A DNA stretch of 48,521 nucleotides from an uncultured Clostridia bacterium. Lineage in GTDB: Bacteria > Bacillota > Clostridia > Christensenellales > Borkfalkiaceae. Shown here piece by piece: positions 1-15,273 of the stretch. Under the pieces are notes generated by a model. That model was not told where the DNA came from and ran no database searches. It saw only the letters and a list, made by a program, of their open reading frames with translations. The DNA is taken from contig CALVLK010000010.1 of NCBI GenBank assembly GCA_944337235.1, positions 1-48,521 on the forward strand, in the 5' to 3' direction. The position numbers were made by a program, and so were the translations under genes. Numbering within the stretch: position 1 is the first letter of the stretch; each line of letters begins with the position of its first letter.

Positions 1-2
1 TC

Positions 3-3000
3 TCGCCCATCACGCAGGTGCTCATCGAAAAGTACATCGGCGGCTGGAAGGAGATCGAGTTCGAGGTGCTGCGCGACGGCGCGGGCAACGTGCTTACCGT
101 CTGCTCCATGGAAAATTTCGACCCCGTCGGCGTACACACGGGCGACTCCATCGTCATCGCGCCCGCGGTGACGCTCTCGGACAAGGAATATCAGATGCTG
201 CGCTCGGCTTCGCTCTCCATCATCTCCGAACTGGGCATCGAGGGGGGCTGCAACTGCCAGTTTGCGCTGCGCCCCGACAGCTTTGAATATGCCGTCATCG
301 AGGTGAACCCGCGCGTTTCGCGTTCCTCGGCGCTTGCGAGCAAGGCGACGGGCTACCCCATTGCCAAGGTGACGACCAAGATCGCCTTGGGCTATACCCT
401 CGACGAGATCAGAAACGAGGTCACGGGCAAGACCTTCGCCTGTTTCGAGCCGACGCTCGACTATGTCGTCGTCAAGCTGCCCAAGTGGCCCTTCGATAAA
501 TTTTTGTACGCCAAGCGGGAACTCGGCTCGCGCATGAAGGCGACGGGCGAGGTCATGGCGATCGCGCCCACCTTCGAGCAGGCCATCATGAAGGCGGTAC
601 GCGGGGCGGAGATCTCGCTCACGACGCTCAATGCGCCCAAGTTCGAGGCGCTCTCGCGCGAGGAACTGTTTGCCGAGCTGCACAAGACGACGGACGAACG
701 GCTGTTCGCCGTGTTTGCGGCACTGAAGGCGGGCATCACCCCCGACGAGATCTTTGATATCACCAAGATCGATCGCTGGTTTTTGCATAAACTTCTCAAT
801 TTGGTGCGCTTTGAGGGAAGCATCGCGGGCAGCAAGCTGACGAGGGCGCAGTACCTTGCAGGCAAGCAGCTGGGCTATACCGACGCCGACCTTGCGCGCA
901 TCAGCGGGAACAAGGTCCCCCACCGCCGCGCATGCTTCAAGATGGTCGATACCTGCGCCGCCGAGTTCGCCGCGCAGACCCCCTATTTCTATTCCACCTT
1001 CGACGATCCCGCGCACGACGAGGCGGTCCCGTTCGTAAAAAACAGCAAGAAGCGCCGCGTCATCGTCATCGGCTCCGGCCCCATCCGCATCGGGCAGGGC
1101 ATCGAATTCGACTATTCCTCCGTCCACTGCGTGTGGACGCTCAAAGAGCTCGGCTACGAGGTCATCATCATCAACAACAATCCCGAGACGGTGTCGACGG
1201 ACTTCGATACGGCGGACAGGCTGTATTTCGAGTCGCTCACGCCCGAGGACGTGCAGAACGTCATCGACGTCGAAAAGCCGTACGGCGTCGTCATCACCTT
1301 CGGCGGGCAGACGGCGATCAAGCTGTGCGGATATCTCGCCAGGAAGGGCGTGCGCATTCTGGGCACGAGCGCAGACAGCGTCGACATGGCGGAGGACCGC
1401 GAGCGCTTTGACGAACTGCTCGAACAATTTCAGATCGCCCGCCCCAAGGGGCTCACCGTCATGACCAAGGAGGAGGCGATCCAGGCCGCCGAAACGCTGG
1501 GATACCCCGTGCTGCTGCGCCCCTCGTACGTCATCGGCGGGCAGAACATGACGATCGCCTTCACCGAAAACGATATCTCGCGCTATATGGACGTCATCCT
1601 GGCGCAGCATATCGAAAATCCCGTGCTCTGCGACAAGTATCTCATGGGGACGGAGCTCGAGGTGGACGCCATCTCCGACGGGGTGGACGTGCTCATCCCG
1701 GGCATCATGCAGCACATCGAGCGCGCGGGCGTGCATTCGGGCGACTCCATCGCCGTGTATCCGCCCTATCATCTGAGCGATCGCATGCTGAAAACGATCG
1801 TAGACATCTCGACGCAGCTGGCGCTCTCGCTCAAGACCAAGGGGCTCATCAACATTCAGTACCTCATCTATGAGAACAAACTGTATGTCATCGAGGTCAA
1901 TCCGCGCGCGTCGCGCACCATTCCCTATATCTCCAAGGTGACGGGCGTGCCCATGGTGGAGCTTGCCACCAAGATCATGGTGGGCGCCAAGCTCAGAAAG
2001 CTGGGTTACGGCACGGGGCTGTATCCCAACTCGCCCTATGTCGCCGTCAAGGTACCTGTGTTCAGCTTTGAAAAACTCAACGACGTCAACTCGCAGCTCG
2101 GTCCGGAGATGAAGTCGACGGGCGAGGTGCTCGGCATCGGCAAGACGATCGAAGAGACGCTCTTTAAGGGGCTTGTCTCGGCAGGGTTCAAGATGTGCCA
2201 CCCCACGCCGCACAGACCGGTCGGGGTATATTTCACCGTCAACGATCAGGACAAGTTCGAGATCGTGTCCATCGCCAAGAAATTTGCCGATCTGGGCTGT
2301 TCGCTGTATGCCACGGCGGGAACCGCAAAGGTCATCTCTGCGCTCGGTATCGACGTGACCGTGGTCGACCGGCTCAAGGCGACCAAGCAGGTATCCAAGC
2401 TCATGGACGATGGCAAGATCGACTATATCATCTATACGGGCAAGACGGACATGGATTCCATCAGCGACTATATCGAGCTGCATCACCATGCCATTCTGCT
2501 CGGCATCACCGTGCTTACCTCGCTCGATACGGCAAATGCGCTCTGCGACATCATCGCAAGCAAATTCACCGAATACAACACCGAGCTCGTGGACATCAAC
2601 CATCTGCGCACGGAGAAGATGAACTTAAGCTTCGTCAAGATGCAGTCCTGCGGCAACGACTATATCTACTTCGAAGATCCCGACGGGCAGATCACCTGTC
2701 CCGAATCGCTCGCCGTCAACTTTGCTTCGCGCAGGTACGGTATCGGCGGCGACGGCGTGGTGCTCATCGAGCGCTCGGAGGTCGCCGACGCCAAGATGCG
2801 CATCTTCAACCAGGACGGTTCGGAGGGCATGATGGCGGGCAACGCCATCCGCTGCGTGGCGAAATATCTCTATGAAGAGGGCATCGTGCCCAAGGAGGAG
2901 ATGCGCATCGAAACGAACAGCGGCGTGCGCAGCGTAAAGGTGTTCTCCTTCGGCGGCGTGGTGTCGTCGGCGAGCGTCGATCTGGGCGAGCCGATCTTTG

Positions 3001-3461
3001 ACGGCGCCAAGATCCCCTCTGTATGGAAGGGGGAGCGCATCGTCGATCAGCCCATGCTTATCGACGGCGAGGAGCTGCGCGTCACGCTTGTTAATCTGGG
3101 CAACCCGCACTGCGTGATCTTCTGCCCCAAGGTGGACGATGTGCCTGTGGAGACGCTCGGCCCCAAGATCGAGCACAGCGAATATTTCCCGCAGAAGGTG
3201 AATGTGGAGTTCATCCGCGTCGTCAACCCTTACACGATCAAGATGCGCGTATGGGAGCGCGGCAACGGCGAGACGTGGGCGTGCGGCACGGGTGCCGCTG
3301 CGGCTGCGGTCGCCTGCGTGCTCAACGGCCTGTGTGCGCGCGACACCGATATCACCGTCAAGCTGAAGGGGGGCGATCTGATCGTCAACTATCATTCGGA
3401 CGGATCCGTCACCCTCACGGGCGGCGTACAGAAAGTATATGAGGGGAAAGTGAGGTTCTGA
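3..3461 (+). CDS. carB-dapF: Carbamoyl-phosphate synthase large subunit (5'-partial) fused in frame to diaminopimelate epimerase
   Basis: The reading frame is open from the left window edge, so the start lies outside. The first ~870 residues are CarB, which makes carbamoyl phosphate from bicarbonate, ATP and glutamine-derived ammonia for arginine and pyrimidine synthesis. Visible are the end of the first ATP-grasp half (opening [17 protein letters not shown], then [20 protein letters not shown]), the oligomerisation region, the second ATP-grasp half ([35 protein letters not shown]) and the MGS-like allosteric domain (TAGTAKVI). Compared with the usual ~1070 residues about 200 N-terminal ones are missing. 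No stop codon follows CarB: after [14 protein letters not shown] the frame runs straight into DapF at nt 2619 and ends at TGA 3459-3461. carA is expected just left of the window. Either a true bifunctional protein or an mRNA with an internal start; the open frame itself is directly visible. Confidence 0.93.
2619..3461 (+). other. dapF: DapF (diaminopimelate epimerase) module of the fusion; possible internal start
   Basis: This 280-residue part converts LL- to meso-diaminopimelate for lysine and peptidoglycan synthesis. It begins [18 protein letters not shown], the normal DapF N-terminus, so the whole enzyme is present with no extra linker. The second catalytic cysteine is seen in [12 protein letters not shown] (about residue 222). 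The first one, normally in a CGNGxRC motif near residue 73, is replaced: the sequence reads MMAGNAIRC with Ala codon 2835-2837. GGAG at 2612-2615 lies only 3 nt before the ATG, a poor but possible ribosome binding site for separate initiation. The meso-DAP-type MurE at 28.5 kb agrees with a need for this product. Fold assignment is sure; activity is less so because of the missing cysteine. Confidence 0.88.
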
Positions 3462-4075
3462 TGCAGAGAGAGACTTTTTACGAAGAGAGCGCCGTCCCGG
3501 CGTCGAGTCTGCGCGAAGCAAAACTGTATAAGATGTTTCATATCGCACAGATCGTCGCCATCGTGCTGCTCTGCGCGCTGCTTTTGTTCTTTGTTCCCTA
3601 TTGGATGTCCCGTTGGGGCTTATATCGGAACGGAGATCTTACGATCGCAGAGTTTTTCGTGCTCATCATCCCGGAAGTGATGCTGATTGTGTTCATCGGG
3701 GTCGCGGCGCTCATCTTCTTTTTCATCAAGAGAAGGTTCAACATCAGCTACGACTATTCCTTTGTGGATGACGAGCTGCGCGTTTCAAAGGTGTTCAACG
3801 GCAAACGGCGCAAATTTCTCGTCCGCCTCGAGGCGGAATATATGCTCAAGCTCGGCTGGGCGGATCGCGAGTCCTTTCAGCGCACCTGCGCGGGGATGGA
3901 CAGAAAGAGCATCCGCTTCCTCACTCCGAACAAGGCGCCCGTCGAGGGAAAAGAGTTTTATTACGTGCTGTACACCACATCGCTGGGCAAAACGGTCTAT
4001 GTGCTCGAGGCGCGGCAGGAGATGCTCGAATGCCTGGTGCGTGCTGCGGGCGTGAATAAGTTGGAGCGCGCATGA
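3461..4075 (+). CDS. Uncharacterised two-helix membrane protein
   Basis: A 204-residue protein with two hydrophobic segments, about residues 28-48 (IVAIVLLCALLLFFVPYW) and 66-90 (FFVLIIPEVMLIVFIGVAAL), followed by a soluble C-terminal part of ~110 residues that begins with a basic stretch (KRRFNISYDYSFVDDELRV). The hydrophilic part resembles the PH-like cytoplasmic domains of small Clostridia membrane proteins of unknown function, but I do not recognise a named family with certainty. The ATG shares its A with the TGA of carB-dapF, and the stop overlaps the start of the cysteine desulfurase by 4 nt (ATGA), so it is translated as part of this operon. Overlaps on both sides are the main evidence that it is a real gene. 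No function is proposed. Confidence 0.85.
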   Translation: MQRETFYEESAVPASSLREAKLYKMFHIAQIVAIVLLCALLLFFVPYWMSRWGLYRNGDLTIAEFFVLIIPEVMLIVFIGVAALIFFFIKRRFNISYDYSFVDDELRVSKVFNGKRRKFLVRLEAEYMLKLGWADRESFQRTCAGMDRKSIRFLTPNKAPVEGKEFYYVLYTTSLGKTVYVLEARQEMLECLVRAAGVNKLERA

Positions 4076-10796: not shown

Positions 10797-13349
10797 ATGG
10801 CGCTTTCACCGATGATGAAGCACTACCTTGCGATCAAGGAGAAGTACAAGGACTGCATCGTATTTTACCGTCTGGGCGACTTTTACGAGATGTTTTACGA
10901 CGACGCGCGCAAGGCGTCGGCGCTGCTCGATCTTACGCTGACCGGCCGCGACTGCGGTCTGGAGGAGCGCGCGCCCATGTGCGGCGTGCCCTATCATGCC
11001 GCCGACGGCTATATCGCAAAACTGGTGGCGGCGGGCGAGAAGGTGGCGATCTGCGAACAACTCAGCGACCCCAAGGAGGGGAAGGGCATGGTGGATCGCG
11101 ACGTCATCCGCATCGTGTCTGCAGGTACGCTCATCGAAGAGGATCTTCTCGACGCAAAGTGCAGCAACTATATTGCCTGCGCCGTAAAACAGGGGGAACG
11201 GTGCGCGCTCGCCTGGGCGGACATCACCACGGGCGAATGCGCCGCGAGCGAGGCGGAGAATGTGGAAAAGCTCCTTTCATCGCTCATCAATCTCTCTGTG
11301 GCGGAGGTCATCAGCAACGACGAGATGCTGCTTGCCTCCAAGGACAGCGAGGAGGTGCAGCGCGGGCTTCTGCCGCACTTTTCCTGCCCGCCTCCCTGGA
11401 CGTTTTCCGCGCCCGAGGCGGAGCGCGCGCTCAAAGAACAGTTCGGCGCCGCGTCGATGCAGGCGCTCGGGCTGGAGGGGCGGCCCGCCGTCACGGCGGC
11501 TGCGGGCGCGCTCATCGCCTACCTGCATGACACGCAGAAGCATGCGCTCAAAAATATCAACCGCCTGCGCGTTTCAGACGGTTCGCAATATATGGTGCTC
11601 GACCCCACCGCCGTGCGCAATCTCGAACTGGTACGCAGCAATGCGGAGGGGAAGAAATATGGCTCGCTTCTGTGGCTGCTCGACCGTACAAAGACGGGCA
11701 TGGGGGCGCGCAAGCTCGCCTCGCTCCTTCTGATGCCGCTGCAGAACAAACAGGAGATCGACGCCCGCCTTGATGCCGTGGACGAGATGTGCCGTGCCAC
11801 CGTCGTGCGCATGGGGATCAGCGACATGCTCTCGGGCATGCGCGATATTGAGCGGCTGACGGGGCGCATCTCCAACGGGAATCTGCAGCCGCGCGACTGC
11901 ATCGCGCTCTCCCGTTCGCTCGCCGTCGTGCCCTCGCTGCGGCTGCAGCTGGCGGGTTTTTCCTCGCCCCTCATGCAGGAGATCTCCTCCTCGCTTGCCG
12001 ACACCAAGGAGGTGTGCGCGCTCATCGACCGCGCCATCGACGAGCGGGCGGGGCTGCTGCGCGACGGCACATTCATCCGCGCGGGATATTGCAAGGAGCT
12101 CGACGACCTGCGCGAGATCAAGGACAAGGGCAAGTCGCTTTTGGCCGACCTCGAGGCGCGCGAGCGGGAGGAGACGGGCATCCGCACGCTGAAGGTGGGC
12201 TATAACCGCGTTTTCGGATACTATATCGAGGTGAGCAACTCCTTCAAGGAGAAGGTGCCCTATACCTATGTGCGCCGCCAGACGCTCTCTACGGGGGAGC
12301 GCTATGTCACGGAGGAGCTGAAAAAGCTGGAGGAGCGCATCCTCGGCAGCGACGACAGGGCGCAGCGGCTGGAAAACAGCCTGTATGCCGAACTTTTGGA
12401 GATCCTCGCGCGCAACATCGTCGTTTTTCAGACGATCGCCGACGCCGTGGCGCGGCTGGACTGCATCGTCTCGCTTGCGACCGTCGCCAAAGAGAATAAA
12501 TACTGCCGCCCGACCATTGTGGAAGAGGGCGCGCTCGAATACCGCGATGGGCGTCATCCCGTAGTAGAGGCGCTCTCGCGCGAGCGCTTTGTGCCCAACG
12601 ACTGCCTGCTGGACGGGGCGGAGAACCGCACCATGATCATCACGGGGCCGAATATGGCGGGCAAGAGCACCTTTCTCAGGCAGACGGCGCTCATCGTGCT
12701 CATGGCGCACATCGGCAGCTTTGTGCCCGCCGCAAGCGCCACCGTGCCGCTCGTCGACCGCATCTTCACCCGCATCGGTGCGAGCGACAATCTCATTCTG
12801 GACAGAAGCACCTTCATGGTGGAGATGACCGAGGTCGCCGCCATCCTGCGCGGCGCCACGCCGCGCAGCCTGCTCATCCTCGACGAGGTGGGGCGGGGCA
12901 CGAGCACATACGACGGGCTCTCCATCGCCTGGGCGGTGATCGAATATCTCAACGAAAATATCCGCGCCAAGACGCTGTTCGCCACGCACTATCACGAACT
13001 GACAGAGCTGGAGGGCAGACTTGCGGGCGTCAAAAATTACAAGATCAATGCGCGCGAGTCAAACGGGACGATCGTGTTCCTGCGCAAGATCGTGCGCGGG
13101 GGCGCCTCGCGCAGCTTCGGGGTGGAGGTCGCCGCGCTCGCGGGCGTGCCGCAGGAGGTCACAACGCGGGCAAAGCGCATTCTGCGTTCGCTGGAAAAGA
13201 ACGATCTTGCCGCGCGCCCGCAGGAGCGGGAGGAGGCGCCGCAGGATCCGCTCAGAGAGGAACTGAACGCCCTCGACGTCAATGCGCTCTCTCCCATGCA
13301 GGCGCTCGCCCTGCTCGCGCAGTGGAAGGAGAAATATCATGAAGATTAA
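10797..13349 (+). CDS. mutS: DNA mismatch repair protein MutS
   Basis: MutS recognises mismatches and starts repair as a dimeric ATPase. The mismatch-reading motif is GDFYEMFYDDA near the N-terminus (usual FxE). The ATPase domain has Walker A TGPNMAGKSTFLRQ, DRIFTRIGASD, Walker B LLILDEVGRGTSTYDG and ATHYHEL. 850 residues is a typical MutS1 length. It begins 4 nt after the miaB stop, preceded by AGGGGGG, and its last 11 nt overlap the start of mutL. Not MutS2: no Smr domain, and the mismatch-recognition domain is present. Confidence 0.98.
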   Translation: MALSPMMKHYLAIKEKYKDCIVFYRLGDFYEMFYDDARKASALLDLTLTGRDCGLEERAPMCGVPYHAADGYIAKLVAAGEKVAICEQLSDPKEGKGMVDRDVIRIVSAGTLIEEDLLDAKCSNYIACAVKQGERCALAWADITTGECAASEAENVEKLLSSLINLSVAEVISNDEMLLASKDSEEVQRGLLPHFSCPPPWTFSAPEAERALKEQFGAASMQALGLEGRPAVTAAAGALIAYLHDTQKHALKNINRLRVSDGSQYMVLDPTAVRNLELVRSNAEGKKYGSLLWLLDRTKTGMGARKLASLLLMPLQNKQEIDARLDAVDEMCRATVVRMGISDMLSGMRDIERLTGRISNGNLQPRDCIALSRSLAVVPSLRLQLAGFSSPLMQEISSSLADTKEVCALIDRAIDERAGLLRDGTFIRAGYCKELDDLREIKDKGKSLLADLEAREREETGIRTLKVGYNRVFGYYIEVSNSFKEKVPYTYVRRQTLSTGERYVTEELKKLEERILGSDDRAQRLENSLYAELLEILARNIVVFQTIADAVARLDCIVSLATVAKENKYCRPTIVEEGALEYRDGRHPVVEALSRERFVPNDCLLDGAENRTMIITGPNMAGKSTFLRQTALIVLMAHIGSFVPAASATVPLVDRIFTRIGASDNLILDRSTFMVEMTEVAAILRGATPRSLLILDEVGRGTSTYDGLSIAWAVIEYLNENIRAKTLFATHYHELTELEGRLAGVKNYKINARESNGTIVFLRKIVRGGASRSFGVEVAALAGVPQEVTTRAKRILRSLEKNDLAARPQEREEAPQDPLREELNALDVNALSPMQALALLAQWKEKYHED

Positions 13350-15273
13350 CATTCTTTCACCCGAGGTGTACAACCGCATCGCCGCGGGCGAGGTGGTGGA
13401 TCGCCCCTATTCTGTCGTCAAAGAGCTCGTGGAAAACGCCATCGACGCGGGCGCGGACGCGATCACGATCGAGATCGAAGGCGGCGGCAAAAAGCGGGTG
13501 CGCGTTGCGGACAACGGCAGCGGGATCCCCAAAGAGGAGCTGCGCGCCGCCTATCATCCGCACGCGACGAGCAAGCTTTCAAGCGCAGAGGATCTCTTCT
13601 CCGTCAGAACGCTCGGCTTCCGCGGCGAGGCGCTCGCCTCCATTGCCTCGGTGTCGCGCATGAGCATCTGCTCCAAGACGGCGGATGGCGAGGCGTGGGA
13701 GCTGAAAGCGGAGGGGGGCGTGCTCGGCGAGATCGTGCCCTCTGCCTCGGCAGACGGCACGACGGTGACGGTGGACGACCTCTTCTTCAACACGCCCGCG
13801 CGGCTGAAATTTCTCAAATCGGACGCACAGGAGGAGGGGGACGTCTCGGCCATGGCCGCCCGCTTCATCCTCTCCCGCCCGCACATCTCCTTCACCTACC
13901 GCATCAACGGAAAGGTGCGTTACCGCTCCTTCGGCGACGGACTCGAGAGCGCGCTGATCAACGTGTACGGCCCTTCGATCGTGCAGAACTGCTACGAGAT
14001 CTCGGCAGAGAAGAACGGCATCCGCCTCTATGGCTTTATCGGGAACCAGAACTTCGCCAAGCCCAACCGCAGCTATCAGACGCTGTTCGTTAACGGGCGG
14101 TATGTGGTCAACCAGACCGTTTCGGCGGCGATCGCCAATGCCTACGGCAACTATCTGATGAAGCGGCAGTTCGCCTTCTATGTGCTCTTTCTGGACATAG
14201 CGCCCGAAGCGGTGGATGTCAACGTGCACCCCAACAAGACGGACGTCCGCTTCCGCGACAACCAGGTCGTCTACGGCAATGTATATTCCATCATCTCCTC
14301 CGTGCTTGACGGCAATTCGCGCGCGCTCGAGTATGTCGTCTCCCGCGGCACATCTTCTGCAGAACAGGAGAGCGCTGCGCCTGCGCCCGGGGAGAACGCC
14401 CCCGCAGGACAGGAAAACGCCGCGGCGCCTCAAGAGAGGGGTTCTTTCTCCATAGGGCAGGGGGGATCTGCCGCGCCCGGGCGCAAGGCGCCCCCCATGC
14501 GGCAGATGACGGCGGAGGAGGCGCGCCGTGAGCTTGCATTCGACGTGACCCCTATGGGCATCCGCCGCGATCCCTTCCCCGCGCCCGAGGTAATGGAGGT
14601 GCGCTCCCCGCGCGTGCCGCCGCAGGAGGACGCCTTTGAAGAGAACCGCCGCCTTTTGCGCGAAGCGGAGGAAAAGCGGGGGCGGGAAAAGCTCGACCCG
14701 CAGGCGCTCGTCTATAAGGGGGAGCTGTTCCGCACCTATCTCATCTACGAGGCGGGAGACACGGCATACCTCATCGACCAGCACGCCGCGCACGAGCGCA
14801 TGCTGTACGATAAATTGCAGGAAAAGATGGAAAACGGCACGATCAATGTGCAGCCTTTGCTCGTTCCCTACATCTGCAATGCGAACGCGCAGGAGTTTGC
14901 CTTTTTGCAGCGCAGCTTCGGGGCGCTGCGCGCCCTCGGCTTTGAGATCGAGGAGTTCGGCGGCACGAGCGTAAAGGTCTCGGCGCTGCCCGCAGAGCTG
15001 ACGGGCATGGACATCGGCGCCTTCTTTTCCGAAGTGCTCTCCTCCATGGAGACGCTGCGCGCCATCAAGCTCGGCGAGCTTCTGCGCGACAAGTTGGCGG
15101 GCATGGCATGCAAGGCGGCGGTCAAGGGGGGCGAACGGCTCACGGAGGAGGAGGCGCGCGCCCTCGTCCGCGCGATGGACGGGGACATGGGCCTGCGCTG
15201 CCCGCACGGCAGACCGGTCTGCGCCCGCCTGACGCGGGCAGAGCTGGAAAAGCTGTTCAAGAGGACGGTATGA
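13339..15273 (+). CDS. mutL: DNA mismatch repair protein MutL
   Basis: A GHKL ATPase that couples MutS to downstream repair. The 644 residues begin MKINILSPEVYNRIAAGEVV and show ENAIDAGA, DNGSGI, TSKLSSAEDL and GFRGEALASI. A Pro/Ala/Glu-rich linker of ~100 residues leads to the C-terminal endonuclease domain with DQHAAHERMLYD, ACKAAVKGG and CPHGRP, so this is the nicking type found in bacteria without MutH. The last acidic residue of the DQHA(x)2E(x)4E motif is Asp instead of Glu. The start at 13339 lies within mutS (11-nt overlap); the longer frame from 13282 adds residues unlike MutL. miaA starts inside the stop codon. Confidence 0.97.
   Translation: MKINILSPEVYNRIAAGEVVDRPYSVVKELVENAIDAGADAITIEIEGGGKKRVRVADNGSGIPKEELRAAYHPHATSKLSSAEDLFSVRTLGFRGEALASIASVSRMSICSKTADGEAWELKAEGGVLGEIVPSASADGTTVTVDDLFFNTPARLKFLKSDAQEEGDVSAMAARFILSRPHISFTYRINGKVRYRSFGDGLESALINVYGPSIVQNCYEISAEKNGIRLYGFIGNQNFAKPNRSYQTLFVNGRYVVNQTVSAAIANAYGNYLMKRQFAFYVLFLDIAPEAVDVNVHPNKTDVRFRDNQVVYGNVYSIISSVLDGNSRALEYVVSRGTSSAEQESAAPAPGENAPAGQENAAAPQERGSFSIGQGGSAAPGRKAPPMRQMTAEEARRELAFDVTPMGIRRDPFPAPEVMEVRSPRVPPQEDAFEENRRLLREAEEKRGREKLDPQALVYKGELFRTYLIYEAGDTAYLIDQHAAHERMLYDKLQEKMENGTINVQPLLVPYICNANAQEFAFLQRSFGALRALGFEIEEFGGTSVKVSALPAELTGMDIGAFFSEVLSSMETLRAIKLGELLRDKLAGMACKAAVKGGERLTEEEARALVRAMDGDMGLRCPHGRPVCARLTRAELEKLFKRTV

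Follow-up and report, generated by a model that had tools for sequence, protein, structure and literature searches.

A carB::dapF gene fusion of old, single origin in Clostridia and the probable loss of epimerase function from its DapF domain in an arginine operon

Why should the large subunit of carbamoyl-phosphate synthetase (CarB) continue without a stop codon into diaminopimelate epimerase (DapF), and is the second half of such a protein an epimerase? The question is raised by the first gene of the window, the whole stretch of 48,521 nucleotides from an uncultured Clostridia bacterium that was analysed here. A single frame, open at the edge from base 3, runs to a stop at 3459-3461 and encodes 1152 amino acids with zero internal stops. 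An earlier note on this DNA had described the MGS-like end of CarB as joined to a complete DapF in one stop-free frame, with no linker at the join. Both points were borne out, as window bases 3-3461 form that frame and DapF follows directly on the CarB C-terminus with zero added residues. The features of the gene are as follows.

3..3461, + strand: fused carB::dapF gene, with its 5' end outside the window, on contig C6 of the same genome
3..2258, + strand: CarB part, comprising the rest of the first ATP-grasp half, the oligomerisation domain and the second synthetase half
2259..2519, + strand: MGS-like domain of CarB (Pfam PF02142), residues 753-839
2520..2618, + strand: C-terminal end of CarB running into DapF, stop absent
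2619..2621, + strand: ATG at the would-be separate DapF start; Met is found there in 10/80 relatives
2619..3458, + strand: DapF domain, full length, a pseudo-epimerase as judged by sequence
2835..2837, + strand: Ala codon where the first catalytic cysteine (Cys73) of a DapF would stand
3282..3284, + strand: Cys codon for the second catalytic cysteine (Cys217), kept

Both halves were assigned to their families by profile scores. The CarB part reached 1077 bits against TIGR01369 (cut-off 1027) despite its truncation at the window edge, and its ATP-grasp, oligomerisation and MGS domains were in the Pfam order of CarB; the DapF part reached 272.4 bits against TIGR00652 (cut-off 114.65) over its full length. 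The end of contig C6 matches window bases 1-59 exactly and C6 carries the start of CarB, so the gene is truncated by the contig edge alone. The gene for the partner small subunit, carA, lies directly upstream on C6. No second CarB was found in the window genome, which is 89% complete. Downstream, a frame at 3461-4075 shares bases with the fused gene's stop codon (TGATG) and resembles a membrane protein by eye, and NifS-like and ThiI-like genes, also named by eye, follow it.

When genome contigs were searched for the junction, 133 stretches encoding it emerged; the best 80, a set selected by likeness to the fusion, were kept. The matched stretch was open in all of these best 80 of the 133 related loci, and contigs from many separate assemblies shared the same CarB-DapF join. 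The stop codon at the junction that the earlier note had thought relatives might carry was found in 0/80, and the recurrence of the join across separate assemblies makes an assembly error near 2600-2620, which it had also raised, very unlikely. Named relatives among the junction matches include Candidatus Gallimonas, placed within Clostridia by the NCBI taxonomy, and Candidatus Borkfalkia. The note's proposal that related genomes be searched for the fusion was followed by drawing genomes at three ranks. Of 297 genomes drawn from the order, at least 87 had a full or nearly full-span fusion in a single frame and one more (G233) a partial fusion; of 291 drawn from the class, at least 40 had it, three of them from the window's own family. 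In the phylum draw of 159 genomes, five besides that of the window had the fusion, all five labelled as belonging to the phylum but to another class. The set taken forward consisted of 125 fused genomes (88 from the order draw and 37 from the class draw) spanning 36 family codes. No CarB-DapF fusion was described in the titles or abstract openings searched, with subscription journals mostly outside the search, and no carbamoyl-phosphate synthetase fused to a pseudoenzyme in this way was found in titles or abstract openings.

In a tree of CarB alone (109 rows), the 93 fused rows, which had been picked because they were fused, made up one side of one branch with support 100. Unfused-length CarB frames from the window's family were then added (20 regions fetched, of which 18 were usable and two had no usable frame); 17 fell in a CarB clade apart from the fused one, and the frame of the last, G071, is cut at the junction by the end of its contig. 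The idea that unfused CarB is absent from the window's family was rejected, as many unfused-length frames occur in other genera of the family. Within the window's own genus, a CarB match was present in 15 of 19 genomes, all fused by frame length or as split pieces, and four had no match. These four nearly complete genomes (G042, G066, G092 and G123) have a DapF match and zero CarB match at the threshold, which reads as loss of the synthetase gene in its entirety. By the CarB tree, the fusion is old and of single origin.

The tree of DapF domains required two changes for the fused rows. Three stand-alone DapFs, L286 (G683), L287 (G521) and L291 (G434), had positions among the fused DapFs that were not strongly supported, and may have separated from the fusion at a later time; the stand-alone DapF of the window genome grouped with other stand-alone DapFs. 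A gene order from which the fusion could have arisen was seen in unfused form: carA-carB-dapF-dapL at L247 (G309:C13) and L284 (G466:C57), and carB-dapF-dapL at L285 (G685:C68), with the dapL and dapF of G466 confirmed. G309 has its unfused carA-carB-dapF-dapL operon alongside a fused copy with Ser73. It is plausible that carA-carB-dapF-dapL was the progenitor order.

The earlier note had also suggested a recent loss of the stop codon, tolerated because the DapF ATG could still be used. A single fused clade over 36 family codes does not fit a recent loss. Nor does the ATG serve as a general reason, since Met occupies the DapF start in 10 of the 80 relatives, and 15/57 cysteine-intact and 12/60 resolved cysteine-lost fusions had a Met close to the join; an internal DapF start was accordingly dropped as a conserved feature. 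A recent read-through tolerated through DapF's own ATG, or an artefact of assembly, is scarcely credible as an explanation of the gene. The ATG at 2619 is indeed preceded by GGAG, but the 80 best relatives of the 133 are all open across the join and belong with a single clade, the Met is seldom there, and a separately made domain would still be without Cys73.

Catalysis by DapF relies on two cysteines, 73 and 217, according to the sections of PMC4227774 drawn on here. The window DapF has Ala at 73, opposite Cys73 in five alignments to solved DapFs, and Cys at 217, and so does not carry the catalytic pair. Position 73 was Ala in 79 of 81 fused sequences, with one Gly and one Thr, and position 217 was Cys in 69, Ser in 11 and Gly in one. 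Stand-alone DapF loci carried both cysteines in 81 of 82 cases (78 distinct sequences), and the one locus that did not, L052, is a fused copy truncated at a contig edge. Across the CarB tree the cysteine state switches at least 10 times; the window sits in a 31-row clade (support 100) that is cysteine-lost throughout and covers 13 family codes. Both states occur within genus code g80, where the fusion is intact in G227, in which no further DapF was found, and G309, G406, G415 and G423 have Ser73 and another DapF. The window domain keeps its family membership, has lost a catalytic residue and stands in a gene under purifying selection, a combination that marks a pseudoenzyme, with the fold taken from sequence alone. 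The fused DapF half is predicted to be without epimerase activity here.

The surroundings of the gene point to arginine synthesis. The order is argG-argC-argJ-argB-argD-argF-carA-carB::dapF, with the arg genes and carA on C6 and each over its NCBIfam cut-off. The reading that we prefer, at a probability of about 0.45, is that a pseudo-epimerase domain has been retained on an arginine carbamoyl-phosphate synthetase, where it would probably bind a ligand and act in regulation. Context was compared among fused loci by motif matches, with at least 1.2 kb available on the relevant side and argF counted within 2.5 kb upstream. An argF motif preceded 27 of the 47 cysteine-lost fusions and none of the 49 intact ones, and the window's own NCBIfam-confirmed locus adds one arginine case; the 20 of 47 cysteine-lost fusions without the motif count against the preferred reading. 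Motifs for carA were found upstream of 22/47 cysteine-lost and 43/49 intact fusions, for purF at 2 cysteine-lost and 10 intact fusions, and for dapL downstream of 0/59 cysteine-lost and 10/52 intact ones. The argF context switches at least six times on the tree, and a comparison of independent pairs between argF context and cysteine loss, which was underpowered, gave six pairs, 1.6 versus 0.0 (p 0.5).

The loss of Cys73 was next set beside other sources of meso-DAP. The window genome has a stand-alone dapF with both cysteines (G000 contig C2:5372-6193, L085), and no match to a meso-DAP dehydrogenase was obtained there. By eye, L085 sits between genes resembling adenylosuccinate synthetase and CTP synthase. 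Among the 125 fused genomes, the fused domain had both cysteines in 57 and had lost a cysteine in 68. Both cysteines and no other DapF over the cut-off were seen in 53, and a lost cysteine with a stand-alone DapF in 50; a lost cysteine was accompanied by no other DapF in 16 and by DapF fragments only in two, and four had both cysteines and a stand-alone DapF, which counts against the preferred reading. A plain Fisher test with fragments counted as none gave p = 7e-15, for genomes that are related and in some cases incomplete. When independent pairs were compared, cysteine loss and stand-alone DapF went the same way in 3.2 of eight pairs and the opposite way in 0.7 (median p 0.375); with dehydrogenase admitted as an alternative to DapF (62 rows) the values were 3.1 versus 0.1 (p 0.25). 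Both comparisons were underpowered, and the lack of significance for stand-alone DapF counts against the preferred reading.

The search for meso-DAP dehydrogenase covered 76 of the 125 genomes. It was over the cut-off in 12 of the 16 cysteine-lost genomes without another DapF, and the remaining four were G097 (96% complete), G324 (91%), and G520 and G550 (65% each). That 16 of 68 cysteine-lost genomes are without another DapF, and four of them also without the dehydrogenase, is a further point against the preferred reading. The dehydrogenase was also present in 12 of 26 tested cysteine-lost genomes with a stand-alone DapF, in three of the four with both cysteines and a stand-alone DapF, and in one of the two with fragments. 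Fusions from outside the class run partly against the pattern, with both cysteine motifs present despite a second DapF match in G724, G806, G805 and G767; G839, the remaining one of the five, likewise has a second DapF match and carries Gly73. In G806 the fusion and the second DapF are about 8 kb apart on one contig (C62:3436-4641 and 12744-13592).

These distributions bear on the earlier note's other proposal, a real bifunctional protein, which has to be divided. The 53 fusions with both cysteines and no other DapF are probably true bifunctional enzymes, judging by their residues and gene content, so the proposal is likely to hold for many relatives and unlikely to hold for the window, with its Ala73 and separate DapF. 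An active bifunctional CarB-DapF enzyme in the window organism itself is very improbable. It would agree with those 53 relatives, and with the 15 of 28 tested intact genomes without a stand-alone DapF in which no dehydrogenase was over the cut-off (13 had one), but the window has Ala for Cys73, its genome has a separate DapF with both cysteines, and the E. coli double mutant DapF(C73&217A) is described in the part of PMC4227774 consulted as making no meso-DAP.

In the portions of PMC8225329 and PMC12039745 used here, Asn11, Gly74, Asn75, Gly218 and residue 219 hold DAP at its reacting end, and Glu208, Asn64, Asn157, Asn190 and Arg209 at its far end. All ten contact residues (11, 64, 74, 75, 157, 190, 208, 209, 218 and 219) are kept in the window. 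The full set was present in 57/57 intact fusions, 81/81 stand-alone loci and 46/66 Cys73-lost domains (38/49 outside the window's family), and the 20 of 66 with an incomplete set count against ligand binding. Conservation by site was examined in the window's pseudo-epimerase clade (42 sequences, assigned by the analyst; 55 near-invariant positions). Nine pocket sites were kept at a mean of 0.899 and other non-catalytic sites at 0.902, with Cys73 at 0; since the pocket was kept as well as the core and not better, sequence cannot decide between a sensing and a structural role.

The main rival, a serious possibility, is a structural relic: the redundant domain would have lost catalysis and stayed for folding of the synthetase C-terminus or for dimer contacts, sensing nothing. 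It is favoured by the equal retention of pocket and core, by pocket drift in places, and by the fact that no domain loss was seen within the fused clade, 17 of the 18 unfused-length CarBs lying elsewhere and G071 being cut at the junction. Selection was estimated as dN/dS by the pairwise Nei-Gojobori method, in which the pairs are non-independent. For the best-80 junction loci the value was 0.209 for the DapF domain and 0.077 for the last 500 CarB codons (955 pairs), and this higher value for the domain also agrees with a relic. Against it, the domain value is not above that of stand-alone DapFs in the window's family (0.28, 48 pairs), and the ten contacts are complete in those 46 of 66 domains despite the missing catalytic residue. 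Retention for the fold alone would also show purifying selection, which counts against the ligand-binding reading. Intact fusions gave 0.192 for the domain and 0.106 for CarB (40 pairs), and the cysteine-lost fusions of the order and class draws gave 0.461 and 0.327 (90 pairs). The latter values speak for weaker constraint and are not leaned on, little weight being given to 0.461 because CarB is high too.

A one-cysteine domain might instead catalyse a different reaction, such as an elimination or the exchange of a proton on one side only, although we consider this improbable. The window retains the second cysteine, as do 69 of the 81 sequences and 59 of 66 Cys73-lost domains, and a DapF-like racemase acting on another diamino acid is known, as reported in the section of PMC8225329 used; yet in 12 of the 81 sequences (11 Ser, 1 Gly) the second cysteine is lost as well, with the domain still present.

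The course of events under the preferred reading may be outlined as follows. The carA-carB-dapF(-dapL) gene order would have given rise to the fusion, and its first product would have been an active two-function enzyme. Where another route to meso-DAP was available and the synthetase came to serve arginine synthesis, the fused half would have become a pseudo-epimerase; a suggested reason is that an essential DapF should not stand under arginine control. The likeliest present task of the pseudo-epimerase would be to take up DAP or a similar amino acid in its old pocket, and a closing motion of the DapF type could then act on the neighbouring MGS domain or affect how the synthetase assembles. 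The earlier note's suggested tie to carbamoyl-phosphate allostery would come close to this reading. Both an open form and a closed, DAP-bound form of DapF are known (PMC12039745).

A more specific version, which we hold doubtful, is that of a DAP sensor: LL- or meso-DAP would be bound unturned, closure would act on the MGS domain, and carbamoyl-phosphate synthesis from the arginine operon would track how much cell-wall precursor is supplied. Sub-lineages that carry Asp190 and Gln209 may have a pocket shifted towards a basic amino acid without a far carboxylate, such as ornithine or arginine. Asp190 together with Gln209 occurred in 10 of 170 fused ORFs, nine with Gly157 and one with Arg157, which counts against the ligand-binding reading; the 170 ORFs (160 distinct) pool the best-80 junction loci with the order-draw loci, so that some genomes are counted twice. 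As a lead only, these changes, with that at residue 157, would remove contacts to the far carboxylate of DAP. Positions 157, 190, 209 and 217 jointly differ from DapF in L061-L064, L068, L071, L073, L075, L078 and L080, which would change the DAP pocket at its far end.

Two states of one fusion thus exist within one class: an apparent sole DAP epimerase, and a domain that has lost a catalytic residue and yet persists. As the cysteine state changes at least 10 times, in one instance inside a genus code, naturally occurring pairs offer a way to test how an enzyme turns into a pseudoenzyme. In annotation, labelling the fused gene as DapF would assign the organism's epimerase to the wrong gene, and if ligand binding is borne out, the domain would represent a control input not known before for carbamoyl-phosphate synthetase.

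The window protein agrees with DapF (TIGR00652) in its full-length domain over the cut-off and in all ten DAP-contact residues, and differs in having Ala for the first catalytic cysteine, a joined CarB and a separate DapF in the genome. With CarB (TIGR01369, NF003671) it shares the domain order, including MGS, and the position of argF and carA directly upstream, and differs by its extra C-terminal DapF domain. Mammalian CPS I carries a dead glutaminase domain, and HisZ is a dead tRNA-synthetase paralogue that regulates HisG. In these systems, too, an enzyme-derived part that has lost catalysis stays with or regulates a biosynthetic enzyme; the donor folds are different, and function is established there, whereas a role for the fused DapF is proposed. 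The closest precedent for a catalysis-free role of DapF itself is E. coli DapF, which, according to the sections of PMC4227774 drawn on, still binds RppH when inactive and stimulates that enzyme by direct contact, although there the two are separate proteins and the partner is a different one.
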